64,000 nt of DNA from Candidatus Eiseniibacteriota bacterium (GTDB lineage: Bacteria > Eisenbacteria > RBG-16-71-46 > CAIMUX01), in the NCBI GenBank assembly GCA_903844735.1, contig CAIMUX010000002.1:1-64000 (forward strand), written 5' to 3'. This document shows positions 9,038 to 24,614 of this stretch, piece by piece. Position numbers and translations under genes: made by a program. How positions within the stretch are numbered: the stretch's first letter is position 1; the number at the start of each line of letters is the position of its first letter. Below the pieces are notes generated by a model. It saw only the letters and a list, made by a program, of their open reading frames with translations. It made no database searches and was not told the DNA's origin.

Positions 9038-9150
9038 CTGCTTGCCGAGGTGTTTGCGGGGGACCGGATTGTGCCCGCACGGAGCGCACAATTGAGCTGG
9101 ACGCATCTGCGCCGGATCATTTACCTCGACGACCCGCTCAAGCGGGAGGT
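9038..9150 (+). pseudogene. Fragment of a DUF1016 (YhcG-type PD-(D/E)XK nuclease) gene, inner part
   Basis: About 37 codons read LLAEVFAGDRIVPARSAQLS then WTHLRRIIYLDDPLKREV. This matches the middle of the DUF1016 N-terminal domain (pattern ..IVxxLSxQLSW.H...I..L.DPLKR.F). There is no start, and the frame closes at 9223 without the nuclease domain. An earlier part of the same family appears in front of pglZ (22171-22245), so the two fragments flank the island in reversed order. Recognition is from memory of the family. The rest of 8935-9232 shows nothing else. Confidence 0.55.
9068..9092. repeat. Inverted repeat ATTGTGC...GCACAAT
   Basis: Perfect 7-bp arms (9068-9074 and 9086-9092) around an 11-base loop, inside the DUF1016 fragment just after pglX. 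The surrounding 29 bases (9067-9095) match 27 of 29 bases at 22194-22222 in front of pglZ. No T-run follows, so it is not an obvious terminator. Confidence 0.6.
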
Positions 9151-9232
9151 CTGCAACATTGGAGGCATTCTGCTGTGCGTGAGCGCATTGTGGTTCGTGG
9201 CAATCGTTGCCGAGCGGTGCTAGACTGATCCT

Positions 9233-9712
9233 ATGGAGCCGACGGTCTACATCGAAACGACGATCTTCAGCTACCTCACTTCTGATCCGAGCAGCAACCT
9301 GGTTGTTGCCGGCCATCAGCAGGTGACTCATGACTGGTGGTCGCGGCATCGACCGCGATTTCGCCTGGTCACATCCGCTGTGGTCCTCCGTGAGGCAGGG
9401 GCGGGGGACCCCGCGAAGAGCCGACAGCGATTGGCACTTATCGACGGTCTTCCCCTGCTCGAAATCACGGAAGCGACCTTGGTGCTGGCCGAGGGCCTGG
9501 TCACGGCCGGGATCGTCCCCGCGAAGGTTTTCAACGACGCCCTCCATCTCGCCACCGCGACGGTTGGTCGCGCGGACTACCTCATGACGTGGAATCTGGC
9601 TCACCTCGCGGGGGCGCAGGTCCGCCGTCGCATTGAACGGGAGTTGCGTCGGCGGGGGTTCGAGCCGCCGACCTTGTGCACTCCCGAAGAGCTAGGAGCA
9701 GGGAATGACTGA
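9233..9712 (+). CDS. PIN-domain toxin, VapC-like
   Basis: A 159-residue PIN-domain protein, probably a toxin RNase. Acidic residues typical of the fold occur in VYIETTIFSYL (N-terminus), LREAGAGD (middle) and FNDALHLATA followed by YLMTWN (C-terminal third). The gene comes before its presumed antitoxin, which starts within its last codons (9705), so the pair is coupled toxin-first. It is the first TA module after pglX. Its 3' half is duplicated, joined to a different part of the antitoxin, at 14351-14715. The family call is firm from pattern; toxicity is inferred. Confidence 0.8.
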   Translation: MEPTVYIETTIFSYLTSDPSSNLVVAGHQQVTHDWWSRHRPRFRLVTSAVVLREAGAGDPAKSRQRLALIDGLPLLEITEATLVLAEGLVTAGIVPAKVFNDALHLATATVGRADYLMTWNLAHLAGAQVRRRIERELRRRGFEPPTLCTPEELGAGND

Positions 9713-9920
9713 CCGAGACAACGCGCACGAAACTACCGGAGACCAGACGGATCCCATCGTGGCGGAGGTCCGTGCACAACGCGAAGCGATTGTCGCCGCT
9801 GCCGGCGGCGATCCTCGGCGGATCTATGCTGATCTCAAGTCGCTTGAGCGGCGTGAACGCCAGGCGGGGCGGACGATTCTGCCACCCCCGACGGTCTCGC
9901 AATCAGAAACTGCCGCGTAG
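9705..9920 (+). CDS. Putative antitoxin to the upstream PIN toxin (copy 1)
   Basis: A 71-residue charged protein with the core DPIVAEVRAQREAIVAAAGG then DPRRIYADLKSLERR. The same layout (DPLVEEIRRVRD...YDLDAIFADLKAQE) is found in the protein after the PIN gene at 10938, so this is a recurring partner of this PIN subfamily. The start overlaps the toxin 3' end. Copies exist at 16110-16325 (intact, without toxin) and, fused out of frame, at 14351-14715. In copies 1 and 2 it is followed after 92-95 bases by a duplicated 3' end of pglX. The antitoxin role is inferred from position and size. Confidence 0.65.
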   Translation: MTDRDNAHETTGDQTDPIVAEVRAQREAIVAAAGGDPRRIYADLKSLERRERQAGRTILPPPTVSQSETAA

Positions 9921-10012
9921 TCCGTCGCCGGGAACATCGGGCTGCCGAACAAGCCGTTGGAACGGCTCGGGTACGCTGCGCGGTCCCGCCCGCTCAACGG
10001 CGTTCGCTCATT

Positions 10013-10681
10013 GCCACAGCCGGCCCCAAGGGCTGCAAGTCCGAAACCCTGGAAGACTGGCTGCGAGACGAGTTCTTCGAGCAACACTGCGCCCTCTTCC
10101 ACCATCGCCCGTTCACCTGGCACGTCTGGGACGGCCACAAGACCGGCTTCAGCGCTCTGGTGAACTATCACCAACTCACCCACGCCAATCTGGAAAAGCT
10201 CACCTACGCCTACCTCGGCGATTGGATCCGCCGCCAGCAAGCCGCCGTGGAGGCCGGCGAGGCCGGCAGCGATGCCCGCCTGCAGGCCGCCAAGCAATTG
10301 CAGGCCCGGCTCAAGCTCATCCTCGAAGGCGAGCCCCCGTTCGACATCTTCGTCCGCTGGAAGCCGCTCTCCAAGCAAGCCATCGGCTGGCACCCCGACC
10401 TCAACGACGGCGTGCGGATGAACATCCGGCCCTTCCTCGCCCTGGACATTCCCGGCGGCAAGAAGGGAGCCGGCGTCCTGCGTGCGAAGCCCAACATCAA
10501 GTGGGAGAAGGACCGAGGAAAGGAACCGATGAGGGACAAGGCGGAGTATCCCTGGTTCTGGGGTTGGGATGTGGTGGCGCAGGACTTTGCGGGAGTCGGC
10601 AAAGAACCCGACGGCAACCGGTGGAACGATTGCCACTACAGCGGCGCGGTCAAGAAGGCGGCGCGGGTAACACCGAAGTGA
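10013..10681 (+). pseudogene. Duplicated 3' end of pglX (copy 2)
   Basis: This segment is 669 bp and corresponds base for base in length to 8266-8934 of pglX, encoding the last 222 residues and its stop. The frame is intact throughout. The first start codon in frame is a GTG at 10160, which would give a 173-residue protein, but no Shine-Dalgarno is visible. Over 76 codons (8521-8748 against 10268-10495) I count 14 synonymous and 5 amino-acid changes from pglX. One cluster changes QIC to PLS. Homology to pglX starts abruptly at 10013, after a 92-base linker following the antitoxin. It is either a remnant of a second pglX allele or a free-standing C-terminal module. Confidence 0.85.
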
Positions 10682-10690
10682 GCCGGTACA

Positions 10691-10894
10691 GTGTGGAGGA
10701 ACAAGGATCGCGTCTCAGATCTCCACGAGAAGGACGCCACATGGGAGCTCGTGATCAGTGACGCCGTCGTGGTTGACCCTGAAGGCTGGCTGGGCTTCGT
10801 TGTTCCTCAACACGTCAACGACCGAGTCGGGACCCAGTTGCGAGATGAGTTGGCACTGGAATTGCGGCGGATCGGCAGCGCCCTCATCGGGTAG
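10691..10894 (+). CDS. Small ORF of unknown function downstream of pglX copy 2
   Basis: A 67-codon frame starting at a weak GTG; a shorter start is possible. Its core reads WELVISDAVVVDPEGWLGFV then VPQHVNDRVGTQLRDELALE. I do not recognise a family. A homologue with its own stop lies at the same place after pglX copy 3 (17121-17297), although a 4-bp indel near the 5' end changes the upstream frame. The real start is therefore probably inside the shared part. Whether it is translated is unclear. Confidence 0.35.
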   Translation: MWRNKDRVSDLHEKDATWELVISDAVVVDPEGWLGFVVPQHVNDRVGTQLRDELALELRRIGSALIG

Positions 10895-10937
10895 CACGTA
10901 CGTTGGGAAATGATGATGATAGAAAGGGGCTCCACGG

Positions 10938-11435
10938 ATGGCTGACTCGAGACCGATCGCGTACCTTGAGACGACCTTCGTGAGCTACCTCACGTCGAGG
11001 CCGAGTCGCGATCTGGTGGTGGCTGCGCATCAGGAGGTCACGCGGGAGTGGTGGGACGAGCGACGGGGCGACTATCATCTCATCACGTCCCAGCTTGTTC
11101 TTTCGGAGGCGTCCGCGGGAGACCCCGAGGCTGCGAAGCGACGGCTGGATGCCTTGCAGAGCGTAGAACTCGTGGCGATTACGGCCGGGGCAAGAGATCT
11201 GGCCCGTGCACTGCTCGCCGCCCACGTCGTGCCGAGCACGGCCGCGGAAGACGCGCTGCATATCGCCATTGCCGCGGAGAGCGGGGCAAGCTACCTCATC
11301 ACATGGAACTGCAAACACATCGCGCACGCGGCAATGCGTGGTAGCATTGAGGATGTCTGCCGGCGTGCAGGCACGGAGCCGCCGGCGCTGTGCACGCCGC
11401 TCGAACTCCTGGAGGAACTCGACGATGGTACGTGA
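10938..11435 (+). CDS. PIN-domain toxin, VapC-like (second type)
   Basis: A 165-residue PIN-domain protein, distantly similar to the one at 9233 and of the same subfamily. Shared features are AYLETTFVSYLTSRPSRDLV at the N-terminus, QLVLSEASAGDPEAAKRR in the middle, and EDALHIAIAAESGASYLITW in the C-terminal third, with conserved acidic residues at the presumed metal site. ATG at 10938 has an AAAGGGG ribosome site upstream. Its end overlaps the next small gene at 11425, the same toxin-then-antitoxin layout as 9233/9705. Probably an RNase toxin; the substrate cannot be told from sequence. Confidence 0.8.
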   Translation: MADSRPIAYLETTFVSYLTSRPSRDLVVAAHQEVTREWWDERRGDYHLITSQLVLSEASAGDPEAAKRRLDALQSVELVAITAGARDLARALLAAHVVPSTAAEDALHIAIAAESGASYLITWNCKHIAHAAMRGSIEDVCRRAGTEPPALCTPLELLEELDDGT

Positions 11436-11616
11436 TCCGTTGGTCGAGGAGATTCGGCGGGTCCGCGACGCCCACGCCAAGCGTTTCGGGTACGACCTCG
11501 ACGCCATCTTCGCCGACCTGAAGGCCCAGGAGCAAGCAAGCGGACGGCAGTTCGTCACGCTCCGTCCCCGAAAGGCGCGGGACGGAACATCGGCCGAGCA
11601 CATCAAGCACGGATAG
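11425..11616 (+). CDS. Putative antitoxin of the PIN module at 10938
   Basis: A 63-residue charged protein with the core DPLVEEIRRVRDAHAKRFGY then DLDAIFADLKAQEQAS, the same pattern as the putative antitoxin at 9705. The ATG at 11425 overlaps the toxin 3' end by eleven bases. The presumed role is to bind and neutralise the upstream PIN toxin; this rests on position, size and the repeated pairing. Confidence 0.65.
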   Translation: MVRDPLVEEIRRVRDAHAKRFGYDLDAIFADLKAQEQASGRQFVTLRPRKARDGTSAEHIKHG

Positions 11617-11625
11617 CTCGCCGAC

Positions 11626-12060
11626 GTGGCGACCCTTCTTGCGCACTTGCGCTGGCTGCAGGTCGCCGATCGGCTGCGCGTCCTCGACGCCATCGAGAGG
11701 CAGCTTTCGAGTGAACCGATGGTCGAGACCCGCAATCGGAAGCCGCTGAGGCCCAATCCGCTTGCTCCTTGGGAGTTGCGTGTCGGTAATCTCCGGGTAC
11801 TCTATGAGGTAGCGCGAGAGGAGCCCCGCGTCGTGCGAATCCTCGCGATCGGTCGGAAGGAACGCCAGTGTCCTTCGGATCGGAGGTCGGGAGATTGCCC
11901 TATGAGGAAGATCAGCTTGGCCAAGGCTTCCCGGTCCTTGGCGCAGCTCGCCGCGGGCCGGACTCTCGATCTCGAGGAGATGAGAACGCGGGTCCGTAGG
12001 ATGGGCCCGCCCACCGGCAACGGCACGCCGCCGGCGCTGCGTAGGTCTCGGCGCGGCTGA
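11626..12060 (+). pseudogene. Broken ParE/RelE toxin fused to a deleted antitoxin
   Basis: The first part encodes a RelE/ParE-type toxin core (LRVLDAIERQLSSEPMVETR, then APWELRVGNLRVLYEVAREE). Compared with the sister copy at 17371-17813, one extra base near 11870 shifts the frame, so the toxin reads past its stop into the antitoxin. The antitoxin part has lost about 170 internal bases between two CGCCGCGG repeats, a typical slippage or microhomology deletion. Both proteins should be dead here. The sister copy has the opposite damage: toxin 5' end missing, antitoxin intact. Confidence 0.8.
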
Positions 12061-12170
12061 GCGTTCAGGACGGCCCCGCGACGCCTTTGCCGCCGCCGAC
12101 CCGCGCCTCGGCACGTTCGCCCACCTCACATGTGACCACGGCACGAATCTGGCTATCCGCTTCTAGTGTC

Positions 12171-12199
12171 TTGAATTCGTTCACCCCCGGGGTTATCAT
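12171..12199 (+). promoter_or_regulatory. Sigma-70-like promoter of the HigBA module
   Basis: TTGAAT (12171-12176), 17-base spacer, TATCAT (12194-12199). Transcription would start about 16 bases before the toxin ATG at 12222. Confidence 0.6.
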
Positions 12200-12221
12200 G
12201 TCCTGAAGGGGAAGGGTGGGG

Positions 12222-12557
12222 ATGCAGATCGGTTTCGCCACGCACGGTCTGGAGAGGGTGTGCCAGTCGGAGAAACGTCGCATCCGTCGTTGGGGCCCAC
12301 AGGCGGGACCTCGGGTCGGACAGAGATTGGATGAACTCCGGGCGGCGAGGTCCCTGGCCGATCTACGGCATGCCCCAGGGAGTCACCATGAGCTCAAAGG
12401 GGACCGTCGCGGGCAATTGGCGGTTTCAGTGGTCGGAACGCTGCGGTTGATCTACCGCCCGGTGGTTGATGAACGGTCCGTCGGCGCGACGCCGGGGCTC
12501 GACTGGAGCCAAGTGACTGCCGTCGAGATCTTGGAAGTGGAGGATTACCATGGGTGA
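12222..12557 (+). CDS. higB: HigB-like RelE-family toxin
   Basis: A 111-residue plasmid-maintenance-type toxin, expected to cut mRNA on the ribosome. The N-terminus MQIGFATHGLERVCQSEKRR and the C-terminal VEILEVEDYH are characteristic of HigB/killer proteins paired with HigA. The ATG at 12222 is chosen over the GTG at 12216 because homologues begin at this residue and a GGGTGGGG purine stretch lies upstream. The toxin-first order, with the antitoxin starting at 12550 inside its last codons, is the classic higBA arrangement. A good promoter stands just upstream. Confidence 0.8.
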   Translation: MQIGFATHGLERVCQSEKRRIRRWGPQAGPRVGQRLDELRAARSLADLRHAPGSHHELKGDRRGQLAVSVVGTLRLIYRPVVDERSVGATPGLDWSQVTAVEILEVEDYHG

Positions 12558-13683
12558 CCGAACGGAGAACCGGTATCACCCGGACACCGTCAGCCCGCCC
12601 GGGTCCACGCTCGCCGAAATGCTGGAGGAGAGGGGGATGGCCCAGGCCGATCTGGCCACCCGCATGGGCCGCCCGAAGAAGACCATCAGCGAGATCGTCA
12701 ACGGTTTGGCAGCCCTTACGCCCGAGACGGCGATCCAGCTCGAACGGGTGCTCGGGGTCTCGGCTGAGTTCTGGAACAACCGCGAGACTCAGTACCGGGG
12801 CCACCTGGCTGAGCTAAGGGAGCGGGCCCAGCTCACCGGCAATGCCGCTTGGGTCCGCCAGTTTCCCTACGCAGCGCTGACCAGGTGGGGGCTCCTCCCC
12901 TCAACGAGAGATCCGATTGCCCGCGCCCGGGCTCTGCTTGGGTACTTCGGCCTGGCTTCGCAGGAACAGTGGGATGAGATCTGGGGGCAGGGGATCGCCG
13001 CGCAGTGCCGCCGTTCACCGACCATCGTGGCGAAATCCGGGCCGGTTTCGGCGTGGCTCCGCGCAGGGGAAGTCAGGGCGGCCGGGTTGCGTTGTGCACC
13101 TTTCCACGCCGCCCAATTTCGAGCGGTCCTGGAGCAGACCCGGGAGTTGACGGGTACCCGGCCCGAGGCGTTCCAGACGGAATTACCGAGGCTCTGTGCC
13201 ACGGCCGGCGTCGCGGTCGTCTTCACCCCGACGCTCTCGGGCTGTCCGATCAGCGGGGCCACGCGCTGGATCCCTCCGGATACCCCGCTCATTCAGCTCA
13301 GCGCTCGGTATTTGACCAACGACCATCTGTGGTTCACCTTCTTCCACGAGGCAGCCCATATCCTCCTTCATGGGAAGAGGCGGCGATTCCTCGAAACGAC
13401 CCGTGGGCACGTGGCCGATGATCCGCAAACACGGCAAGAAGAGGAGGAAGCCGACCGATTCGCGGCTGAGTTCCTCATGCCCCCCGCCGTCTACAACTGT
13501 GTGCGAGAGCGTCCCCCGCAGACGGAGCGAGAGGTCCGCGGCCTGGCTCGGGACTCCGGCGTGCACCCGGGTATCGTCGTCGGGCGGTTGCAGCACGACG
13601 GACTCTGGCCCTACGCCCGCGGGAACCGGTTGAAGATTCGATTTCGCTGGACGAGGGAATCCGGTGAGCCTGGGACGAGCTGA
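12550..13683 (+). CDS. higA: HigA-type XRE antitoxin fused to ImmA/IrrE metallopeptidase
   Basis: A 377-residue protein. Residues about 20-75 form an XRE helix-turn-helix (ADLATRMGRPKKTISEIVNG). The C-terminal half is an ImmA/IrrE-family zinc metallopeptidase with HEAAH at residues 266-270 and a downstream EEEADRFAAEFLMP glutamate motif. It should bind HigB, repress the module from the promoter at 12171 and perhaps cleave a regulator under stress. Short HigA proteins lack the peptidase, but long fused forms are common. Its start overlaps higB by eight bases. A second, different XRE-ImmA protein lies at 20050. Confidence 0.85.
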   Translation: MGDRTENRYHPDTVSPPGSTLAEMLEERGMAQADLATRMGRPKKTISEIVNGLAALTPETAIQLERVLGVSAEFWNNRETQYRGHLAELRERAQLTGNAAWVRQFPYAALTRWGLLPSTRDPIARARALLGYFGLASQEQWDEIWGQGIAAQCRRSPTIVAKSGPVSAWLRAGEVRAAGLRCAPFHAAQFRAVLEQTRELTGTRPEAFQTELPRLCATAGVAVVFTPTLSGCPISGATRWIPPDTPLIQLSARYLTNDHLWFTFFHEAAHILLHGKRRRFLETTRGHVADDPQTRQEEEEADRFAAEFLMPPAVYNCVRERPPQTEREVRGLARDSGVHPGIVVGRLQHDGLWPYARGNRLKIRFRWTRESGEPGTS

Positions 13684-13841
13684 GGCCTTCGCAGAGCTGC
13701 CGGGGCGGTGTTCGGGTCATCTACTTCCGGAGGGTTCAGGCAGCATTGATTTGGATGCTGACGATATACGCCAAGAACGAGGCCGAAACGATCACCGCGC
13801 CCCTCTTGCGGAAGATCAGACAGGAGATCGAAGATGAGTAG
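13684..13841 (+). pseudogene. 3' remnant of a RelE/HigB-type toxin
   Basis: The frame ending at 13841 reads GGVRVIYFRRVQAALIWMLT then IYAKNEAETI and RKIRQEIEDE. This is the C-terminal half of a RelE/HigB2-type toxin. Its N-terminal half is missing, replaced by the end of the preceding higA gene. The last codons overlap the intact HigA2-like antitoxin at 13834, so this was once a complete toxin-antitoxin pair. Confidence 0.75.
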
Positions 13842-14109
13842 GCCCCGTCGGAACATAGGCATGGAGATCCTGACCGGCATCCGTCCGTTGAAGCGCGGGG
13901 AAGTGGGTAGAGTGATCACGCTCCCGCCGATCGCTGAGATTCGAACGAAGGTCGGCCTCTCCCAAAGCGAGTTCGCTCGACTTCTGGGTGTTTCGGTCCG
14001 GACGCTCCAGGAGTGGGAGCAGGGGCGGAGGGTGCCGTCGGGGCCGGCGCGCACCCTGTTGGCGATCGCGCATCGAAATCCGAAGGTTCTGTTGGAGACC
14101 GTAGCGTAG
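13834..14109 (+). CDS. HigA2-like XRE antitoxin
   Basis: A 91-residue DNA-binding antitoxin with helix-turn-helix LSQSEFARLLGVSVRTLQEW at residues about 43-62, followed by EQGRRVPSGPARTLL, typical of antitoxins partnered with RelE/HigB2 toxins. The gene looks intact while its toxin is truncated, so the module survives as an orphan antitoxin. It could still repress its own promoter or neutralise a cognate toxin elsewhere. Confidence 0.8.
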   Translation: MSRPRRNIGMEILTGIRPLKRGEVGRVITLPPIAEIRTKVGLSQSEFARLLGVSVRTLQEWEQGRRVPSGPARTLLAIAHRNPKVLLETVA

Positions 14110-14118
14110 CAAGGTCAT

Positions 14119-14220
14119 GATCTTCGGGTTGTCGGTCGCACCTGTGGAGGGTGGCCCGGCGTAGGTCGTCAACACCTGGGATCACATCCCGGTCGAACGC
14201 TGGCAGTAGCTGTTCACCCG
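14119..14220 (+). pseudogene. Fragment of the XRE-ImmA/IrrE gene found at 20050
   Basis: About 95 bases closely match 20557-20655 of the intact gene: both encode GLSVAPVEGGPA and then NTWD.IPVERW. Here GCG-GTG-ATC has become GCG-TAG, and a second TAG follows, so it is dead. It lies 6 kb upstream of the parent and shows that island pieces have been copied or moved. The bases between this fragment and 14351 show nothing I recognise. Confidence 0.8.
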
Positions 14221-14350
14221 CAGAGTTGTGAATGGAGGAAGGGGCAGGACGGACCAACCGGAGATCCTCGACTTTCCGACCCGGCCGTTCGGCCAACGGA
14301 TGTCGACGATCGCCGCAGTCTGAGCCAGCGATGGATCCGGCAAGACCTAC

Positions 14351-14715
14351 GACATCGCCCTCCATCTCGCCACCGCGACGGTTGGTCGCGCGGACTACAT
14401 CATGACGTGGAATCTGGCTCACCTCGCGGGGGCGCAGGTCCGCCGTCGCATTGAACGGGAGTTGCGTCGGCGGGGGTTCGAGCCGCACAACGCGAAGCGA
14501 TTGTCGCCGCTGCCGACGGCGATCCTCGGCGGATCTATGCTGATCTCAAGTCGCTTGAGCGGCGAGAACGCCAGGCGGGACGGACGATTCTGCCACCCCC
14601 CACGGTCTCGCAATCAGAAACAGCCGCGTAGTCCGTCGCCGGGAAGATCGGGCTGTCGAACAAGCCGTTGGAACGGCTCGGGTCCGCTGCGCAGCCCCGC
14701 TCGCTCAACCGCGGC
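14351..14715 (+). pseudogene. Scrambled copy of the PIN toxin/antitoxin pair at 9233-9920
   Basis: 14351-14488 repeats the 3' part of the PIN gene (parent from about 9534). It then jumps, deleting about 110 bases, into the antitoxin at the GCACAACGCGAAGCG point (parent near 9775) and follows it past its stop into the linker seen before the pglX fragments. The duplication ends before the pglX part. Toxin and antitoxin are fused out of frame, so the copy is not functional. Confidence 0.85.
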
Positions 14716-14777
14716 GATCGATGGACCGTAGGCGAAAGGCCAATCTCTCGGTCGGCCGAATGATGTAGAATCAAACC

Positions 14778-15002
14778 ATGACGAACGAGGAAATCGAAAC
14801 CGCTGCGCTCCGGCTCGATCCGCGGTCCCGCGCCCGACTGGCAGGCCGGCTGATTGAAAGCCTGGAAACTCTCTCGACGGAGGAGAACGCGGAGATCTGG
14901 ATCGAGGAAGCGCTTCGGCGTGACGCCGAGCTCGACGCTGATCCGAGCGCCGCCCGCGACGCATCCGACGTGTATCGCGATGCTCGGGCGCGGTTGAGTT
15001 GA
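14778..15002 (+). CDS. Addiction-module antitoxin (ParE partner)
   Basis: A 74-residue acidic antitoxin of the small addiction-module-component family. It opens with MTNEEIETAALRLDPRSRAR and continues LAGRLIESLETLS, the usual arrangement of a short helix and LxxxLIxSL segment, with a Glu/Asp-rich tail. The next gene, a ParE-like toxin, starts on the TTG overlapping its stop (14999), so the pair is coupled antitoxin-first. A related but distinct pair stands on the minus strand at 21235-21773. Confidence 0.8.
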   Translation: MTNEEIETAALRLDPRSRARLAGRLIESLETLSTEENAEIWIEEALRRDAELDADPSAARDASDVYRDARARLS

Positions 15003-15295
15003 GTCGTCACGTTGTCTTTCAGGCCCTGGCGGACCTCGAGCTGAACGCCGCTGCCCAGTACTACGAACGGGAGTCCCGCGGCCTCGGGACCGCTTTCCTG
15101 ACCGCGGTGCAAAGGTGCTCCGACTCGATACTGGACCATCCGAATATCGGGGTGCTGGTCCGCGGAGATGTTCGTCGTCGACTGGTGAGTCGATTCCCCT
15201 ATGCCCTTCTCTACAGGGCCACTTCACAGCAAGTCCGAATCCTCGCGGTAATGAACCTGAGACGACGGCCATTCTACTGGGTTGGCCGTCAGTGA
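14999..15295 (+). CDS. ParE/RelE-family toxin
   Basis: A 98-residue toxin of the ParE type. Family features are the N-terminal ADLELNAAAQYYERESRGLG (helix with E/Y residues) and the C-terminal VRRRLVSRFPYALLYRATSQ strand pattern ending in an Arg-rich tail. It starts with TTG at 14999, inside the antitoxin stop codon, which is the only way to keep the conserved N-terminus. ParE proteins inhibit gyrase and RelE proteins cleave mRNA; sequence alone does not decide which applies here. Confidence 0.8.
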   Translation: MSRHVVFQALADLELNAAAQYYERESRGLGTAFLTAVQRCSDSILDHPNIGVLVRGDVRRRLVSRFPYALLYRATSQQVRILAVMNLRRRPFYWVGRQ

Positions 15296-15310
15296 TCGCG
15301 CGCCCAAGGC

Positions 15311-15526
15311 CATGAACCCGCTGGCCGCCGAATCGCCATGCGCGAGCAGGCCGGCACGGGTCTGCGCGTGATGCGGGAGGAATGGCAGAGGCTGGGTCAT
15401 CCGGCGCCGACCTACAAGAACGACCGCGCTTGGAAGGCGTTCGAATTCTTCATTCCCGAGCTGGACGCCGCAAGACGCCCTTCCGGAAGCTGGGGAAGGG
15501 AATTGCGGGACGTACCGCCAGGTTAG
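15311..15526 (+). pseudogene. C-terminal remnant of an ATP-binding (Schlafen/AlbA_2-type) regulator
   Basis: The frame from about 15326 reads RRIAMREQAGTGLRVMREEW, then QRLGHPAPTYKNDRAWKAFE and FFIPELD. It resembles the C-terminal part of ATP-binding AlbA_2/HATPase_c_4 proteins (pattern NPL..EALRR....EQAGTGIR). A NPLAAE stretch just upstream is one base out of frame, so the gene is both truncated and frameshifted. The family call is from memory. Confidence 0.45.
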
Positions 15527-15588
15527 GTCGGACCGGGCTGTTGCGGCTGGTCCCAGGATCCAGTATGGTCACCCTGCGGAGGTGCATG

Positions 15589-15819
15589 ATGAAACAACTT
15601 ACGCGGATAACCCTTGATCCCAATGTCATGGGAGGCAAGGCGTGCGTCCGTGGGCTGCGGGTCACGGTTGGGACGGTCATGGGGCTACTCGCGGCCGGCC
15701 GGTCCCGCGAGGAGATTCTCCAGGCCTATCCCTATCTGGAGTCGGAAGACATTGACGAAGCGCTCGCCTACGCGGCTTGGCGGGTCGAGGAACGTGAGGT
15801 TCCGCTGGCCGCGGTATGA
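15589..15819 (+). CDS. DUF433 antitoxin
   Basis: A 76-residue DUF433 protein with the typical sequence RITLDPNVMGGKACVRGLRV, then TVGTVMGLLAAGRSREEIL and YPYLESEDIDEALAYAAW. DUF433 proteins are antitoxins (VapB45-like) to DUF5615 PIN-like toxins. The ATG at 15589 is preferred (GCGGAGG six bases upstream) over ATGs at 15586 and 15565. The partner toxin starts at 15816, overlapping the stop as ATGA, but is broken. Confidence 0.85.
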   Translation: MKQLTRITLDPNVMGGKACVRGLRVTVGTVMGLLAAGRSREEILQAYPYLESEDIDEALAYAAWRVEEREVPLAAV

Positions 15820-15979
15820 GTGTCACCGTTCTGATCGACATGAACTTACCCCCGAGCTGGGTACCGGTGTTGCAGCCCTCGGGCAAAACAACGACGAATT
15901 GGCTTCTGGGGCGCTGGTCGTCGTCGACGAAGCCAAGCATCGGGTCCGGATCTTGCCGATAGGCGTAGGACCGTTCTGA
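15816..15979 (+). pseudogene. Degenerate DUF5615 PIN-like toxin
   Basis: It begins MSVTVLIDMNLPPSWVPVL, the usual DUF5615 start with the conserved Asp and Asn. It then loses its middle and changes frame; the last 30 codons in another frame read LASGALVVVDEAKHRVRILP, the normal family C-terminus. The internal deletion and frameshift mean the toxin is dead while its DUF433 antitoxin is intact. Confidence 0.75.
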
Positions 15980-16019
15980 CTTCGTCTTGCGCGGGGCCAA
16001 ACTCCACTTCAACGGAGCC

Positions 16020-16087
16020 GCTGAGGATGGGCTGCCATCATGAGTGAGACCCTCGCACAGTGCCTTGCAGCGGCGCTGCGAACCGCT
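16020..16087 (+). pseudogene. Copy of the pglZ 5' end (leader and first 16 codons)
   Basis: These 68 bases align without gaps to 22266-22333, from the pglZ leader (CTGAGGAT.GGCTGCCATC) through ATG and the first residues (MSETLAQCLAAALRTA here, MSETLTQRLVTALRSA in PglZ). Similarity stops and the sequence joins the AGCTAGGAGCAGGGA that precedes the antitoxin ATG at 16110. It is strong evidence that a pglZ 5' end once stood next to this antitoxin/pglX unit. Confidence 0.85.
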
Positions 16088-16109
16088 CCCGAACAGCTAG
16101 GAGCAGGGA

Positions 16110-16325
16110 ATGACTGATCGAGACAACGCACACGAAACTACCGGAGACCAGACGGATCCCATCGTGGCGGAGGTCCGTGCACAACGCGAAGCGATTGTCG
16201 CCGCTGCCGACGGCGATCCTCGGCCGATCTATGCTGATCTCAAGTCGCTTGAGCGGCGAGAACGGCAGGCGGGACGGACGATTCTGCCACCCCCCACGGT
16301 CTCGCAATCAGAAACAGCCGCGTAG
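16110..16325 (+). CDS. Putative antitoxin of the PIN type (copy 2, toxin missing)
   Basis: A 71-residue copy of the antitoxin at 9705-9920, differing in only a few codons (for example GG to DG and RR to RP in the DPRRIYADLK region). The PIN gene that should precede it is gone and replaced by the pglZ 5' fragment; only the last dozen bases of the toxin context remain. It is therefore an orphan antitoxin. As in copy 1, a pglX 3' end follows, here after 95 bases, so antitoxin, linker and pglX end were duplicated as one unit. Confidence 0.65.
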   Translation: MTDRDNAHETTGDQTDPIVAEVRAQREAIVAAADGDPRPIYADLKSLERRERQAGRTILPPPTVSQSETAA

Positions 16326-16420
16326 TCCGTCGCCGGGAACATCGGGCTGCCGAACAAGCCGTTGGAACGGCTCGGGTACGGTGCGCGGTCCCGCCCGCTC
16401 AACGGCGGCGTTCGTTCATT

Positions 16421-17080
16421 GCCACAGCCGGCCCCAAGGGCAGCAAATCCGAGACCCTGGAAGACTGGCTCCGAGACGAGTTCTTCGAGCAACACTGCGC
16501 CCTCTTCCACCATCGCCCGTTCATCTGGCACGTCTGGGATGGCCGCTTCAGCGCCCTGGTGAACTACCACCAGCTCACGCACGCCAACCTGGAGAAGCTC
16601 ACATACGCCTACCTCGGCGATTGGATCCGCCGTCAGCAAGCCGCCGTGGACGCCGGCGAGGCCGGCAGCGACGCCCGCTTGCAGGCTGCCAAGCAATTGC
16701 AGGCCCGGCTCAAGTTCATCCTCGACGGCGAGCCCCCGTTCGACATCTTCGTCCGCTGGAAACCTCTCTCCAAGCAAGCCATCGGCTGGCACCCCGACCT
16801 CAACGACGGCGTGCGGATGAACATCCGCCCCTTCCTTGCCCAGGACCTCCCCGGCGGCAAGAAGGGCGCCGGTATCCTGCGTACCAAGCCCAACATCAAG
16901 TGGGAGAAGGATCGCGGGAAGGAGCCGGTGCGGGACAAGGCGGAGTATCCCTGGTTCTGGGGATGGGATGGGGTGGCGCAGGACTTCGCGGGAGTCGGCA
17001 AAGAGCCCGACGGCAACCGCTGGAATGACTGCCACTACAGCAGCGCGGCCAAGAAGGCGGCGCGGGGATCACCGAAGTGA
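16421..17080 (+). pseudogene. Duplicated 3' end of pglX (copy 3)
   Basis: This segment is 660 bp and corresponds to 8266-8934 of pglX with one 9-bp in-frame deletion (the YKT codons near 16543). The frame is intact to a stop at the same place. The first in-frame start is the GTG at 16559, again giving 173 residues, as in copy 2. Over 76 codons against copy 2 (16667-16894 against 10268-10495) I count 9 synonymous and 6 amino-acid differences. With about three times more non-synonymous sites, that is well below neutral expectation. The homology begins at the same base as copy 2. Confidence 0.85.
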
Positions 17081-17120
17081 GCATGTACAGTGTCGAGGAA
17101 CAAGGATCGCATCTCAGGTC

Positions 17121-17297
17121 GATCTCCACGAGAGGGACGCCACGTGGGAGCTCGTGATCAATGACACCGTCGTGGTTGACCCTGGAGGCTGGCTGGGCTT
17201 CGTTGTTCCTCAACATGTCAACGACCGAGTCGGGATCCAGTTGCGAAGCGAATTGGCACTGGCATTGCACCGACTCGGCGGGGCGACGTCCGGCTGA
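17121..17297 (+). CDS. Small ORF of unknown function downstream of pglX copy 3
   Basis: Counterpart of 10691-10894. It reads DATWELVINDTVVVDPGGWL then GFVVPQHVNDRVGIQLRSEL and ends with its own stop, 217 bases after the pglX fragment. No family is recognised and no clear start codon stands in the shared part. A GTG in LVINDTV (about 17155) is the best candidate and would give a 47-residue product. Confidence 0.3.
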   Translation, partial: DLHERDATWELVINDTVVVDPGGWLGFVVPQHVNDRVGIQLRSELALALHRLGGATSG

Positions 17298-17370
17298 CAC
17301 CGTGGTGGCCAAGTGCTCGGCGCGCCCCGGTCATCGACCACGGAGGAGGTCACGATGAAGCCGACGAGGC

Positions 17371-17505
17371 TGGGAGTTGCGTGTCGGTAATCTCCGGGTA
17401 TTCTATGAGGTAGCGCGAGAGGAGCCCCGCGTCGTGCGAGTCCTCGCGATCGGTCGGAAGGAACGCCATATCCTCCGGATCGGAGGTCGGGAGATTGCCC
17501 TATGA
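17371..17505 (+). pseudogene. 3' remnant of a ParE/RelE toxin (sister of 11626)
   Basis: It encodes WELRVGNLRVFYEVAREEPR then VVRVLAIGRKERHILRIGG to a proper stop overlapping the next gene (ATGA at 17502). The toxin 5' half is missing. The break point joins it to a short start that looks like another antitoxin (RBS GGAGGAGG then ATGAAGCCGACG, 17342-17370). The frame here is the original one that was lost by a one-base insertion in the copy at 11626. Confidence 0.75.
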
Positions 17506-17813
17506 GGAAGATCAGCTTGGCCAAGGCTTCCCGGTCCTTGGCGCAGTACGCCGCGGAGCTGACCGACGAGATCATCGTGGTGACGAAGGGGCATTCCCCC
17601 TATGCGGCTCTGGTGCCTCTGGCGAACGTCGACCGGGAGTCGTTGGCGGTCAGTACTCATCCGGAGTTCATGAAGCTCATAACTCGCGCACGTCGCCGGT
17701 TCGCCGCGGGCCGGACTCTCGATCTCGAGGAGATGAGAACGCGGGTCCGTCGGATGAGCCCGCCCCCCGGCAACGGCACGCCGGCGCCGCGGCGCAGGAC
17801 TCGGCGCGGCTGA
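17502..17813 (+). CDS. Antitoxin of Phd/YefM type (partner of a ParE/RelE toxin)
   Basis: A 103-residue antitoxin with MRKISLAKASRSLAQYAAEL then TDEIIVVTKGHSPYAALVPL in the Phd/YefM DNA-binding N-terminus and a basic C-terminal tail. It looks intact while its toxin is truncated. Two damaged relatives exist: the internally deleted one inside 11626-12060, and a 3' fragment at 18734-18915. The stop of the toxin remnant overlaps its ATG, the normal coupling of this family. Confidence 0.75.
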   Translation: MRKISLAKASRSLAQYAAELTDEIIVVTKGHSPYAALVPLANVDRESLAVSTHPEFMKLITRARRRFAAGRTLDLEEMRTRVRRMSPPPGNGTPAPRRRTRRG

Positions 17814-18025
17814 TTGCCGGCTTCTTATCGGCCCATTCCACTCCACGGCCTCGACGACCCCAACAGCAAAGGCCGGATGCCCGAACCCTCGGGTCAGGCG
17901 GTCTGCCGGTACTGCGACGATCCGGTCCTCTGCGGCATCCGGAGGTTGTGCTGATGTTGACGATTCACCATGACTGCCGGGAAGGGGGATGGGCGCGTGC
18001 GATCGAGTTTTCGGAGAGCACGCGG
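17814..18025. other. Inter-module stretch with a possible Cys-rich remnant
   Basis: No complete gene. A 25-codon frame (17877-17954) ends VCRYCDDPVLCGIRRLC, reminiscent of the Cys-rich tail of RecB-type nucleases, but it is too short to assign. The rest shows nothing. Confidence 0.35.
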
Positions 18026-18054
18026 TTGACCGGAGGATGACGTTAGGGTAAACT
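18026..18054 (+). promoter_or_regulatory. Sigma-70-like promoter of the Phd/VapC module
   Basis: TTGACC (18026-18031), 17-base spacer, TAAACT (18049-18054), 33 bases before the antitoxin ATG at 18087. GGGAGG follows as ribosome site. Confidence 0.65.
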
Positions 18055-18086
18055 AAGTTGAGTGAACCTACTCATGGGAGGTCGTC

Positions 18087-18326
18087 ATGGTTACCGTCAA
18101 CATTCATGAAGCAAAAACCCAACTGTCGAAGCTGGTCGACCAGGCGGTCAACGGAGAATCGTTCGTTATTGCCAAGGCAGGCAAACCGCTGGTGAAGGTG
18201 ACGGCCCTGAACGCTCCGGCGTCACCGCGCCGCCTGGGTTTTCTGACCGGCGAGATCGCCGTGCCCGACGATTTCAACAGCATGGGCGCGGCGGAGATCG
18301 AGGCCCTGTTCGGCAGGAACGCGTGA
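18087..18326 (+). CDS. Phd/YefM-type antitoxin (VapB)
   Basis: A 79-residue antitoxin. The N-terminus MVTVNIHEAKTQLSKLVDQA then VNGESFVIAKAGKPLVKV is the standard Phd/YefM DNA-binding fold; the C-terminal GEIAVPDDFN...IEALF segment is the toxin-binding tail seen in antitoxins of PIN toxins. It has a near-consensus promoter (18026-18054) and a GGGAGG ribosome site. Its stop overlaps the GTG start of the VapC toxin at 18323, so the pair is complete and coupled. Confidence 0.9.
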   Translation: MVTVNIHEAKTQLSKLVDQAVNGESFVIAKAGKPLVKVTALNAPASPRRLGFLTGEIAVPDDFNSMGAAEIEALFGRNA

Positions 18327-18709
18327 AATTCCTACTGGATACCCAGATCCTGCTTTGGGCTGCGGGGCAACCCGAGCACCTGTCCACCGCCGCCCGGCGA
18401 ATCCTGAAGCAGGAGCAAAACCAGCTCCTCTTTAGCGCCGCCAGCTTGTGGGAGATCGCCATCAAGAACACTCTGGGCCGGGAAGACTTCCGCGTCGATC
18501 CTCGCTTACTGCGCCGGGGGCTGCTTGACAATGGCTACATCGAGCTTCCCGTCAGCAGTCAGCACGCGGTGAGCATCGACAGCCTGCCCCCGCTGCATAA
18601 GGACCCCTTCGATCGTCTGCTGCTGGCGCAGGCTTTCACCGAGGGCATCACGCTCCTCACCGCTGACGCGCAACTCGCCCGTTACCCTGGCCCCGTTCGC
18701 AAGGTCTAG
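18323..18709 (+). CDS. vapC: VapC-type PIN-domain toxin
   Basis: A 128-residue PIN-domain ribonuclease toxin. The metal-site acids are in LLDTQILLW (Asp6), LWEIAIK (Glu), DPFDRLLLAQA and LLTADAQL, all in expected order and spacing. The GTG start at 18323 overlaps the antitoxin stop. Length is typical for the family. It forms the best-preserved TA pair of the island, with its own promoter. Confidence 0.9.
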   Translation: MKFLLDTQILLWAAGQPEHLSTAARRILKQEQNQLLFSAASLWEIAIKNTLGREDFRVDPRLLRRGLLDNGYIELPVSSQHAVSIDSLPPLHKDPFDRLLLAQAFTEGITLLTADAQLARYPGPVRKV

Positions 18710-18733
18710 CCCGAGCCCGGAGTATCCGAAGAC

Positions 18734-18915
18734 GACCGGGAGTCGTTGGCGGTCAGTACGCATCCGGAGTTCATGAAGCTCATACCTCGCGCGCGTCGCT
18801 GGTTCGCCGCGGGCCGGACTCCCGATCTCGAGGAGATGAGAACGCGGGTCCGTCGGATGAGCCCGGCCCCCGGCAACACCACGTCACCGCCGCGGCGCAG
18901 GCCTCGGCGCGGCTG
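18734..18915 (+). pseudogene. 3' fragment of the Phd-type antitoxin (third copy)
   Basis: Close copy of 17628-17813: it encodes DRESLAVSTHPEFMKLIPRA then the RTPDLEEMRTRVRRMSPAPG tail and stop. The 5' two thirds are missing, replaced by the end of vapC. It is the third copy of this antitoxin end in the island. Confidence 0.85.
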
Positions 18916-19011
18916 ATAGCCAGATTTGAACCGCATCCTGTGTGCAATCCCGACCGACGTAAATGGCATGACATGCGGATAGAACGCGGACGACTGCCGG
19001 CTCGAAACAGA

Positions 19012-19455
19012 TCAGAGCTCCAGTGTGCTGAGCACAATGATTTTGAGGTCGCTCACGCGGGTGAGCGCCTGATCATTGGTCAAAAAAGCATCGGCTCCCG
19101 CCGCCCTCGCGCAAACCACCTGGAAGGCATCCATCAGCGAAAGGTTGAGTTGGGCGCGAAGGGCGGCCGCTTCTTCGGCGAGCCCGTCGATTCCAGCGTA
19201 CCGGGTGTTCGTGCCGCGCGTGATGGTAAGACGAAACCGCTGGACCAGATCGAGATCGCCTTTGCGGAACGGATGCACCAGGCATTCCGCCAGAGTGATC
19301 GGAGAAGTGACGAGCTCGATCCGTCCTGCGCGTGCGCCGGCCACCGCCACGTCCATGATTTCCCGAAAGGGAGAGACCGATTCCACGTAGTAGATGACCG
19401 GTGCGGTGTCGAGGAACAACGATCGCACGTCGGCGAACGCGTCAACCACCCTCAT
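19012..19455 (-). CDS. PIN-domain toxin
   Basis: A 147-residue PIN-domain protein. The acidic residues occur in SLFLDTAPVIYYVE (N-terminus), LAECLVHP (middle), SLMDAFQVVCARAAG and AFLTNDQAL (C-terminus). The ATG at 19455 is chosen because it overlaps the upstream antitoxin stop as ATGA and the metal-site Asp follows 15 residues later; the frame extends further upstream without homology. One of two TA pairs in the island on the minus strand. Confidence 0.85.
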   Translation of the reverse strand: MRVVDAFADVRSLFLDTAPVIYYVESVSPFREIMDVAVAGARAGRIELVTSPITLAECLVHPFRKGDLDLVQRFRLTITRGTNTRYAGIDGLAEEAAALRAQLNLSLMDAFQVVCARAAGADAFLTNDQALTRVSDLKIIVLSTLEL

Positions 19456-19706
19456 GGGGCTTCGCCCCGGCCGGTTCGCCGATCCTGATCCGCTGTTCGA
19501 CGGGACCGGCTCACCCATTCCTGTGCGTCCTCACCTTGTAGCAGGTCAGGCGCAGCGCCGGCCAGGGCGCTCCAATCAGGACGCTCCTCGGGGGACTCGC
19601 CATCCGCGGCAAGTTCTCGGATGATCTTCTCGACCAGTCTCAGGCGTTCGTTTGCCGAAAGCCGACGAACCTCGTCGTAGAGTTCGTCGGTCCTGCTAGC
19701 CTTCAT
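19452..19706 (-). CDS. Antitoxin of the minus-strand PIN module
   Basis: An 84-residue acidic protein beginning MKASRTDELYDEVRRLSANE then RLRLVEKIIRELAADGESP, the helix pattern of small addiction-module antitoxins. The start at 19706 has a good AGGTGA ribosome site just upstream (19712-19721, read in reverse). Its stop overlaps the toxin ATG. The antitoxin role is inferred from position and composition. Confidence 0.75.
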   Translation of the reverse strand: MKASRTDELYDEVRRLSANERLRLVEKIIRELAADGESPEERPDWSALAGAAPDLLQGEDAQEWVSRSRRTADQDRRTGRGEAP

Positions 19707-20002
19707 GATTTGGTCACCTCCCTGGAGCCTTCTTCGTCGATTCTTATGCATTCCGGGCCGGATTTCAAGAACGGCGTCACCCCCATCCTGGGCACGCCCC
19801 CTGCGGAGGGACGCCTTCCATACGGGGCACGGCGGGGCAGGCCGCCGCGCCCGAGTCTGCCTCGGGGACAGCGGCGACCGGATATCGTGCGAGGCCTCCC
19901 TCAATGGCCACCGGCGCCGATCTTGTTTCGGAACACCGGGCGGAACTACCGGTCACCACCGAAGTATCTTCTGGCACATCTATCGCTAGTGGGCCGATCA
20001 TA
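19707..20002. other. Divergent intergenic region, no gene
   Basis: Space between a minus-strand antitoxin and the plus-strand XRE-ImmA gene. It contains the 19-base sequence CCCCCTGCGGAGGGACGCC (19797-19815), which recurs exactly between the two tRNAs at 45715-45733. No coding sequence is supported. Confidence 0.5.
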
Positions 20003-20031
20003 TTGACGAGATTTGCAGGTACGGCTACAAT
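20003..20031 (+). promoter_or_regulatory. Sigma-70-like promoter of the XRE-ImmA gene
   Basis: TTGACG (20003-20008), 17-base spacer, TACAAT (20026-20031). The ribosome site GGGAGGTGA (20038-20046) and ATG at 20050 follow directly. This is one of the best promoter matches in the window. Confidence 0.75.
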
Positions 20032-20049
20032 GCCGTCGGGAGGTGAAAC

Positions 20050-21201
20050 ATGGCTGAGAACGCCATTGCTCTGAACCTACGGCGACTCCGCAGGGCCAAT
20101 GGGCTCACCCAGGAGGACCTGGCCGAGAAGTCGGGGCTCTCCAGGGCCGCCTATCGGAACATCGAGTCCGGCAAGTCCGAGCCGCGGGTCAGCAGCCTGC
20201 AGGACATCGCCCAGTCGCTCCAAGTGCCGATCCAGCGGCTCGTCGAGCCAGGTCGGGCCCTTCGTGCCGTGCGATTTCGCTCGGGCAAGCGGATGCGCAA
20301 CCGCGAGCAGATCCTCGTCGACGTGGGGCGCTGGCTTGGCGACTTCGGTGACCTCGAGGGTATCCTCGACGACCGCGTGCACCACGACCTCGAACAGATC
20401 CGGGGCCGGCTCAGGGCACGCAAAGACCGGGGCGGAGCGGCAGCGGCTCTCGCTAGAGAGGCCTTCGGTCTGGACGCTCAGGAGCCGGTACGTGACATGT
20501 GCGGCCTCCTCGAGTCGGGTGGGATCAAGGTCGGCGAGCTGAAAGTGGCATCCCACGATTTCTTCGGGCTGTCGGTCGCACCTGTGGAGGGTGGCCCGGC
20601 GGTGATCGTCAACACCTGGGATCGCATCCCGGTCGAACGCTGGATCTTCACCGCGGCGCACGAACTGGGCCATCTCATTCTGCACCTCTCCGACTTCGAC
20701 ATCAGTCGCACCGACGAGGAGAAGAAGCACGAGGAGGAGGCGAACGCTTTCACCGCGGCGTTCCTCATGCCGAACACCTCCTTCCGAAAGGAGTGGGACG
20801 CGACCTACGGTCTGGCGTTTGTCGATCGCATCCTGAAGGTGAAGCGCATCTTTCGCGTGAGCTACCGCACTGTCTTGTATCGCCTGGCGCCCGACTTTCA
20901 GGGTCCCGGGAGTATCTGGGTTCGCTTTCAACTGGACTACAGCCGACGCTACGGTAGGGCCTTGCTTCGGGATGACGAGCCCGAGGCCCTCGCTCAGGAT
21001 GCCTTCCGGGCGAGCTTCCCGGAAGGGACCGCAGCGGGAGAGCCCGACAAGCTCTCGCGCGTGGACTTCATGCAGGATCGGCTGTCCAGGCTCGTTCGCA
21101 GAGCCGTCGAGCAGGAGAAGATCAGTCTGGACCGCGGGGCCGAGATCCTGGGCCTCTCTCTTCTCGACATGCGTGAGCTGGCCGCGTCTTGGGTCGGATA
21201 A
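20050..21201 (+). CDS. XRE regulator fused to ImmA/IrrE metallopeptidase
   Basis: A 383-residue protein. Residues about 8-65 are an XRE helix-turn-helix (LTQEDLAEKSGLSRAAYRNI), and the middle holds an ImmA/IrrE zinc peptidase with HELGH at residues 204-208 and a downstream EEEANAFTAAFLMP glutamate motif. The C-terminal tail (KISLDRGAEILGLSLLDMRE) is typical of this group. Such proteins act as stress-responsive proteases or antitoxins; no obvious toxin partner is adjacent on this strand. A dead fragment of the same gene sits at 14119-14220. Confidence 0.85.
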   Translation: MAENAIALNLRRLRRANGLTQEDLAEKSGLSRAAYRNIESGKSEPRVSSLQDIAQSLQVPIQRLVEPGRALRAVRFRSGKRMRNREQILVDVGRWLGDFGDLEGILDDRVHHDLEQIRGRLRARKDRGGAAAALAREAFGLDAQEPVRDMCGLLESGGIKVGELKVASHDFFGLSVAPVEGGPAVIVNTWDRIPVERWIFTAAHELGHLILHLSDFDISRTDEEKKHEEEANAFTAAFLMPNTSFRKEWDATYGLAFVDRILKVKRIFRVSYRTVLYRLAPDFQGPGSIWVRFQLDYSRRYGRALLRDDEPEALAQDAFRASFPEGTAAGEPDKLSRVDFMQDRLSRLVRRAVEQEKISLDRGAEILGLSLLDMRELAASWVG

Positions 21202-21234
21202 GACCCGTGGCAGCCCGTGGAGCTCCGGGGGCGT

Positions 21235-21543
21235 TCAACGCTCGCCAAGTGGCAGCCGGCATCGCCACGACTCGGGCTCTCGGTGAAGATGCATGACCCC
21301 CACGATGAGAATCGAGTCGTCGCCTCGCAGTTGGTAGACGATGCCATACGGGAATCGGCTTGTTCGGCAACGACGTGTACGTTTCGACAATGAAGCCCAG
21401 GCGTTCGGAAACTCCATCATGCGCCCGATCGTTCGATTGACCTCTGCCGCAAACTCGTATCCGAGCCCCTCACTCTCACTGTTGTAATACACGACAGCAC
21501 TCATGAGCTCCATCTCGGCCGGATCGAGGAACTCGACCTTCAT
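21235..21543 (-). CDS. ParE/RelE-family toxin
   Basis: A 102-residue toxin with MKVEFLDPAEMELMSAVVYY then NSESEGLGYEFAAEVNRTI and the C-terminal RFPYGIVYQLRGDDSILIVG, the standard ParE pattern. Its ATG shares one base with the stop of the upstream antitoxin (TGATG). It is distantly related to the toxin at 14999 but not a copy. The pair is complete and stands convergent to the XRE-ImmA gene. Confidence 0.85.
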   Translation of the reverse strand: MKVEFLDPAEMELMSAVVYYNSESEGLGYEFAAEVNRTIGRMMEFPNAWASLSKRTRRCRTSRFPYGIVYQLRGDDSILIVGVMHLHREPESWRCRLPLGER

Positions 21544-21773
21544 CAGATCTCGCCACGCTCGACACGCGAGAAAACCTCGCTCGCTGGTCGCGACTTGATC
21601 TCGCCGCGATCAAAGGCATCGAGTCTGTCCTCAGCTTCGATCGCCCATCGCTCATCCACGGCAGCTCTGTCTGGAAACGGAAAACTGGCCAGAAGTCTCT
21701 CGATGAGCTCCGCTCGCTCCATGGGCGACAACTTCAGAGCATCCAGGAGAACCCGATTTGCGTGAGGCGACAT
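21543..21773 (-). CDS. Addiction-module antitoxin
   Basis: A 76-residue antitoxin of the small addiction-module-component family. Its motif VLLDALKLSPMERAELIERL then LASFPFPDRAAVDERWAIEA corresponds to the LSxxERAELxxxL / W..E...R pattern of this group. Together with 21235-21543 it forms a complete antitoxin-first pair. It is the last TA module before pglZ. Confidence 0.85.
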   Translation of the reverse strand: MSPHANRVLLDALKLSPMERAELIERLLASFPFPDRAAVDERWAIEAEDRLDAFDRGEIKSRPASEVFSRVERGEI

Positions 21774-22170
21774 GTCGTACTCTCCTGCGCTCTACCTCGA
21801 GGTGTCTTGGCGTATTGTTTCAACCCCCGCACCAGCGGGGGCACAGCCCCCCGGCCGAGCCATGCCGCGCGCCCGCCACCGGCCTTTCGGGTGAACTCAG
21901 CAAGTCTAGCCGAGATCTGGGGGCCAAGGGAAGGCCCTGCCTGACAAGCCCTGCCTGACAAGGCACTTTCATCCGGCGACGGGGGCGAGACGTGAGCAAG
22001 CTACCCTTCGGTCCCGCGGTGCCCCATCCGGGGAAGAGCCCGAAGAGCAATCGTCGCCGCAGGTTGGGCCGGTCACCGGAAACTTGGGTCGTTGCGCGTG
22101 GAGTGGCCAGGCACTAGGCTTGTCCCGCCGTGAATCCCGATCTGACGGGTCTCAAGGACATCCGAAGGAC
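21774..22170. other. Intergenic stretch before pglZ: hairpin and a short tandem repeat
   Basis: No gene is supported. It holds a perfect hairpin (CCCCCGC, ACCA loop, GCGGGGG; 21824-21841) and a 14-bp direct repeat (GCCCTGCCTGACAA at 21934-21947 and 21948-21961). The hairpin lacks a T-run on either strand, so its role is open. Confidence 0.6.
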
Positions 22171-22245
22171 AAGCAGGCGGAACACGGAGAGCCGATTGTG
22201 CGCGCACGGAGCGCACGATTGACTTCCGAGTATGGACGCGGCCGC
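22171..22245 (+). pseudogene. Fragment of a DUF1016 nuclease gene, N-terminal part
   Basis: Twenty-five codons read KQAEHGEPIVRARSARLTSE then YGRGR, matching the DUF1016 pattern RAEYGEQIV..LS..LT.EYGRGF. It precedes, in protein order, the DUF1016 piece found after pglX at 9038. Gene start and nuclease domain are absent. It lies 40 bases before pglZ. Confidence 0.5.
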
Positions 22246-22285
22246 ACGCCGCCCGAACCGAAGCGACTGAGGATAGGCTGCCATC

Positions 22286-24610: not shown

Positions 24611-24614
24611 CCTG

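Follow-up and report, generated by a model that had tools for sequence, protein, structure and literature searches.

A stray pglZ start in a type I BREX island is probably the join of an ancient tandem duplication

The window, that is, the whole 64-kb stretch of DNA analysed here, is the first part of a 144-kb contig (C2) in a draft genome of 5.4 Mb and 142 contigs. It holds a type I BREX system: PADLOC models match brxA, brxB, brxC, pglX, pglZ and brxL (730-8934 and 22286-26666), as follows.

730 (start): brxA, PADLOC model match
1533 (start): brxB, PADLOC model match
2096 (start): brxC, PADLOC model match
8260-8934, + strand: 3' end of the intact pglX, copy A (PADLOC PglX, blastn)
22286-24610, + strand: intact pglZ (PADLOC PglZ, E = 2e-270)
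24600 (start): brxL, PADLOC model match

The gap between pglX and pglZ is 13 kb long and carries several toxin-antitoxin (TA) modules and two HTH-M78 genes. Short tandem or near-tandem repeats lie 5' of brxA, within 1-340 (1-133 against 87-218, 95% identity).

We compared the window with itself by blastn. The segment 16013-16090, inside the gap, aligns without gaps to 22259-22336 at the start of pglZ, with 62 of 78 positions identical (79.5%, E = 4e-12). An earlier note on this DNA had described such an alignment over about 68 bases; it holds, and it extends to 78 bp with the ATG at 16040 included. The note's order of pglZ start, antitoxin (16110-16325) and pglX 3' end (to 17080) is also correct. 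These features are listed below.

16013-16090, + strand: pglZ 5' relic, consisting of 27 bp of upstream sequence and pglZ codons 1-16, ATG at 16040
16040-16117, + strand: 25-codon chimeric ORF, MSETLAQCLAAALRTA+PEQLGAGND and stop, the pglZ N-terminus in frame with a toxin C-terminus
16086-16090, + strand: putative duplication join, pglZ end of copy 1 against toxin-tail start of copy 2 (block boundaries, overlap of ~5 bp)
16110-16325, + strand: orphan antitoxin, a copy of 9705-9920 with 2 amino-acid differences and 7 synonymous changes
16349-16416, + strand: attC-like site 3' of the orphan antitoxin (covariance model E = 3e-28 in the region, the site being part of the model seed)
16415-17080, + strand: pglX 3' stub C, 90.6% identical to 8266-8935; begins 4 nt past the attC crossover G^TT with the frame open
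22259-22336, + strand: pglZ start region homologous to the relic, and end of copy 2 (blastn)

At the register of the match, identity is at background upstream of 16013 and beyond 16092. The next best ungapped placing of the relic 78-mer in the window gave 37 matches on the + strand and 40 on the - strand, as compared with 62. The match stands up to randomised controls, as the best of 200 dinucleotide shuffles reached 45/78. With 500 real 78-mers from elsewhere peaking at 51, chance similarity is ruled out. The 27 bp upstream of the relic ATG are a remnant of a DUF1016 3' end (ending in AAEDGLPS and stop).

The toxin that contributes the end of the chimeric ORF has an intact counterpart just past pglX, where the following features are found.

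9035-9166, + strand: relic of a DUF1016/YhcG nuclease gene (tblastn E = 5e-11 with the protein of relative L019)
9207-10002, + strand: TA1 integron cassette (GTT crossover at both ends, second copy on contig C71, attC model)
9233-9712, + strand: PIN-type toxin of TA1, 49% identical to the PIN paralogue at 10938-11435 (TA2)
9705-9920, + strand: TA1 antitoxin, assigned by position and overlap
9944-10008, + strand: attC of the TA1 cassette (motif scan, covariance model)
10007-10681, + strand: pglX 3' stub B, 92.4% identical to 8266-8935
14356-14720, + strand: further TA1 cassette relic, in copy 1 only, with a 105-bp deletion and a decayed attC

The TA1 toxin has no Pfam PIN match of its own, while its paralogue in TA2 has one; the TA1 antitoxin gave no Pfam match. 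We found the TA1 toxin in no other genome among the 47 of its class that were searched.

The chimeric ORF consists of pglZ codons 1-16 and the last nine codons of the toxin, and the overlap between its stop and the antitoxin start is identical to that in the intact pair 9233-9712/9705-9920. A deletion between pglZ and the antitoxin is thus unneeded: pglZ codon 16 is fused to toxin codon ~149, and the toxin tail runs on unbroken into its own antitoxin. A direct pglZ-pglX join is ruled out by the unbroken toxin tail, antitoxin and attC that stand between the two. One possibility for such a junction is a chimera in the assembly of this draft, which has 142 contigs and 5% contamination and in which repeats could have been misassembled. 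This is extremely unlikely, however: with 1-20% divergence between the copies described below, and a relic sequence that occurs only once in the window, a misjoin of short reads would not account for the relic.

The relic is one of four pairs of blocks that recur in the window on the same strand and in the same order, at offsets of 5601-6440.

9681-10876 and 16086-17279, + strand: block 1 (92%, offset 6405)
11770-12060 and 17371-17813, + strand: block 2 (93-96%, offset 5601-5753); in copy 1 an internally deleted RelE/Phd block (self-comparison), in copy 2 a RelE tail and Phd-like block
14121-14203 and 20561-20643, + strand: block 3 (94%, offset 6440); in copy 1 a relic of the M78 gene
16013-16090 and 22259-22336, + strand: block 4 (79.5%, offset 6246)
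20050-21201, + strand: intact HTH + M78 peptidase (ImmA/IrrE-like) gene of copy 2 (Pfam)

Copy 1 spans 9681-16090 and copy 2 spans 16086-22336. The two copies abut, since copy 1 closes with a block that stops at 16090 and copy 2 opens with one that begins at 16086. An abutting join together with colinear blocks on one strand is the geometry of a tandem duplication. The outer flanks, namely the toxin 5' part before copy 1 and the remainder of pglZ after copy 2, are single-copy. Neither 9341-9537 nor 22337-24610 has a nucleotide match in other parts of the window; the sole counterpart of 9248-9340 within it is the TA2 paralogue (71%), and the one close recurrence of the toxin 5' part is on contig C71.

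Judged from the sequence, the most probable explanation, to which we assign a probability of about 0.77, is that the stray pglZ start marks where an ancient tandem duplication of ~6.3 kb was joined, inside the pglX-pglZ accessory gap of this type I BREX locus. The earlier note's proposal that the island holds at least one old BREX duplication join is borne out by the four colinear blocks and the abutting join. The duplicated unit would have run from PIN toxin codon ~149 through the antitoxin, attC, a pglX 3' stub, the Phd/RelE block and the HTH-M78 gene to pglZ codon 16, with its end joined to its start across an overlap of ~5 bp. An overlap of this size suggests that the breakpoint probably arose by illegitimate recombination. 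Afterwards most of the M78 gene would have disappeared from copy 1, which would also have acquired other TA debris, and copy 2 would have remained attached to the intact pglZ.

The unit proposed earlier was larger, a pglX-TA-pglZ interval that was duplicated in tandem and then partly deleted. Tandem duplication with later loss is retained here, but that unit is not. A larger duplication, followed by a deletion across the join that took the 5' parts of pglX and the toxin, would end in the identical sequence, and both the pglX 3' stubs nearby and the loss of large interior parts would fit it. It nevertheless calls for two events where one is enough, and the pglX stub past the antitoxin is already explained by an attC-pglX junction that copy 1 shares. 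We therefore regard it as unlikely.

Against the duplication, two of the four blocks are only 78-83 bp long. Most of the interior is also non-homologous (12.1-14.1 kb as against 17.8-20.5 kb), so much replacement has to be assumed under the tandem duplication. It could be speculated that there was no duplication and that the pglZ start, the TA cassette and the pglX stub were captured independently, by illegitimate or integrase-mediated events, with their colinearity accidental. The island is indeed very mosaic, it contains a fourth TA1 relic (14356-14720), and the cassette on contig C71 adjoins other BREX-like debris. However, such captures are unlikely to yield the order and strand of four blocks and a join within 5 bp (rough chance 0.002 per feature), and this origin is very unlikely. 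Two further sets of gene copies lie in the gap. A Phd-like antitoxin block is present three times (17502-17813, 18733-18921 and 11900-12060), one intact and two truncated, and there are two diverged HTH-M78 (ImmA/IrrE-like) genes (12550-13683 and 20050-21201), the second of which left the relic at 14121-14203.

The junction between antitoxin and pglX stub, common to both copies, is occupied by an element of 65-68 bp with R'' GCCGAAC, L'' GCCGTTG, L' CAACGGC and GTT. Two other places in the genome are homologous to it up to the GTT and no further. Two imperfect inverted repeats, R''-L'' and L'-R', form a hairpin with an unpaired base in L''. A strict attC motif scan gave no match, and a looser scan and a covariance model built from five copies were used instead. 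The sites of this family lie in the window (9944-10008, 16349-16416 and 14653-14723) and on contigs C3, C71, C115, C116, C120, C103 and C51, those on C115, C116, C120, C103 and C51 having been found with the model. In the alignment, which was fitted to the model, 93.5% of stem pairs are kept, 15 of 19 pairs show two-sided changes, and none of 500 shuffles reaches the score; slid versions of the alignment, like the shuffles, score far lower. The window sites, with GCCGAAC and GTTCGYT, deviate from R'' RYYYAAC and R' GTTRRRY, while the C115, C116 and C103 sites have the canonical R' GTTGGGC or GTTGGAC. For R', a departure of this kind is what insertion at a non-att site should produce.

A full integron integrase gene is present at C76:898-1854 (412.7 bits against a cut-off of 265), with no recognisable attC beside it. 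Contig C115 carries an attC together with a 3' fragment of intI.

The attC crossover junction and the interval shared with contig C71 identify the TA1 toxin-antitoxin pair as an integron cassette. C71 and the window have in common only the toxin-antitoxin-attC unit from GTT (9206) to GTT (10002), and the DNA differs on both sides. Positions 1-1994 of C71 (L069/L082), minus strand, hold a second TA array in another order that shares window blocks 9219-10000, 17457-17948 and 18976-19227; its TA1 toxin carries an in-frame stop, and an apparent transposase ORF adjoins it. Past the attC of C71 there may be a DUF1016 remnant (FYAEKDLETAI...ARARLEA; a weak match at E about 0.8) and a second pglZ-start relic (24/32, where 500 shuffles reach at most 23). 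If these remnants are right, the TA1 cassette was formerly inside the DUF1016 gene that in relatives is located between pglX and pglZ. The clear DUF1016 relic just past pglX, upstream of the cassette in the window, is consistent with this. A weak DUF1016-like stretch just 5' of pglZ (22165-22248, best E = 4e-4) suggests that a DUF1016 gene may once have filled the pglZ side of the gap too.

As both copies carry the same junction, the link between antitoxin and pglX predates the duplication. The duplication is not, as had been supposed, the maker of the antitoxin-pglX order, since the same antitoxin-attC-pglX 3' arrangement stands in copy 1 (9705-10681). Before duplication, an integrase acting at a non-attI site would most likely have linked the attC crossover of the cassette to a pglX 3' end. 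Integration of cassettes at non-att genomic sites (attG) has been documented (Loot et al. 2024, as cited in PMC12901181), and stray attC sites and CALINs are known (PMC12444791). The cassettes described here resemble these in the attC hairpin, the GTT boundaries, the TA cargo, an integrase gene elsewhere and a non-canonical sequence after the GTT. In contrast to them, they are single cassettes and not arrays, their landing sites are in BREX-associated DNA, and integrase action at these attC sites is deduced from the junctions only. Stub B and TA2 did not arise by a tandem duplication of their own, as the TA1 and TA2 toxins are ~49% identical and the pglX stubs 92%.

Divergence between the two copies is uneven: 1 difference in 83 positions of spacer and attC, ~10% downstream of the stubs, dS of 0.28 in the pglX stubs and 20% at the pglZ start. 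A single undisturbed duplication is insufficient to explain a range of 1-20% by block. The block ages are not uniform, and the duplication model has to be supplemented by later gene conversion or allele replacement. The pglZ relic is no nearer to the present pglZ than to some relatives, and the present pglZ start may therefore have been replaced or have evolved since the duplication.

Most differences among the pglX ends A, B and C fall at third codon positions (dN/dS 0.08-0.13), despite the truncation of B and C. Between B and C we counted 34 synonymous as against 15 non-synonymous changes (dN/dS 0.11, a departure from neutrality at p = 2e-12); dS between them, at 0.28, is far above the divergence of the adjoining attC and spacer (1/83). 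This rules out neutral decay of the stubs since the duplication. As they differ mostly synonymously, the stubs probably derive from different pglX alleles, and the most economical view is that gene conversion, with other functional pglX alleles as donors, has overwritten B, C or both. The stubs themselves may be under selection, but the only start codon available to them, GTG at 10160/16559, is not a good one. It could further be speculated, although we find this doubtful, that the attC-linked stubs are landing sites at which incoming alleles recombine by way of the repeated 3' ends, perhaps with attC also involved, so that the gap is a pglX shuffling zone whose stubs stay coding-like. If so, the gap would serve to exchange the methyltransferase/specificity gene of BREX while keeping the stubs coding-like.

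Taken together with the tandem duplication, the likely sequence of events would be an ancestral pglX-(DUF1016)-pglZ operon, a TA cassette delivered by an integron, the duplication, and repeated exchange of pglX alleles. These processes are all of known kinds, and it is their combination that is unusual; the integron cassette and the allele-like pglX stubs are its more interesting part. Like other tandem duplications that decay by gene conversion and deletion, this one has colinear repeats, a join with an overlap of a few bp and truncated genes at the join. Unlike them, its interior is largely replaced and its pglX stubs seem to have exchanged sequence with other alleles.

The duplication would also have placed the pglZ ribosome-binding region ahead of the 25-codon ORF. 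The orphan antitoxin is intact and seven of its nine changes are synonymous (p = 0.002), and it may therefore be expressed through the captured pglZ start. One possibility is that this capture was selected, with the pglZ translation start driving the orphan antitoxin so as to protect against the TA1 toxin or to stabilise the island. The in-frame fusion, the retained stop/start overlap and the bias of the antitoxin changes would agree with this. On the other hand, no sigma-70-like promoter was seen in 15.7-16.5 kb, the counts are small, and a third of joins are in frame by chance. We consider such selection unlikely; it would in any case be a possible consequence of the duplication, compatible with it, and not an alternative origin of the join.

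For comparison, we assembled 55 relatives' loci from a scan of GTDB, covering many phyla, in which pglX was sought with a PglX C-terminal query. The pglX-pglZ interval is closed in L016 and L022 and shorter than 100 bp in L017, L025, L027, L028 and L030. In L015, L019, L021, L032 and L034 it is filled by accessory genes such as DUF1016/YhcG (identified by Pfam in L034 and by similarity in the others), the customary occupant of this interval in several relatives. Genes resembling DUF262, RhuM and DUF932 also occur in the relatives' gaps, as judged from ORFs. The arrangement of the window and the intermediates that the earlier note had asked for were found in none of the 55 loci. Since pglX and pglZ in relatives of many phyla are adjacent or split by accessory genes, the second pglZ start is a derived feature.

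Variation of the pglX-pglZ gap is known from S. Typhimurium LT2, with STM4493/STM4494, as against E. coli HS (PMC9009780). Like the Salmonella type I BREX gap, the one described here has accessory genes between pglX and pglZ in an otherwise conserved operon. In contrast to it, the gap here amounts to 13 kb of TA modules, in which attC sites occur along with duplicated ends, 3' and 5', of the two BREX genes that border it. The history of one defence island can be read here, and it shows BREX loci collecting and shuffling passenger genes; it also points to integron cassettes as a possible source of the genes in the variable gap of BREX operons. A further orphan pglX end, of 21 codons, lies before DUF1016 in L032 (13938-14000). 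Its sequence differs from that of the resident pglX end, which we read as a sign of pglX allele replacement and as an independent pglX stub in a BREX gap.
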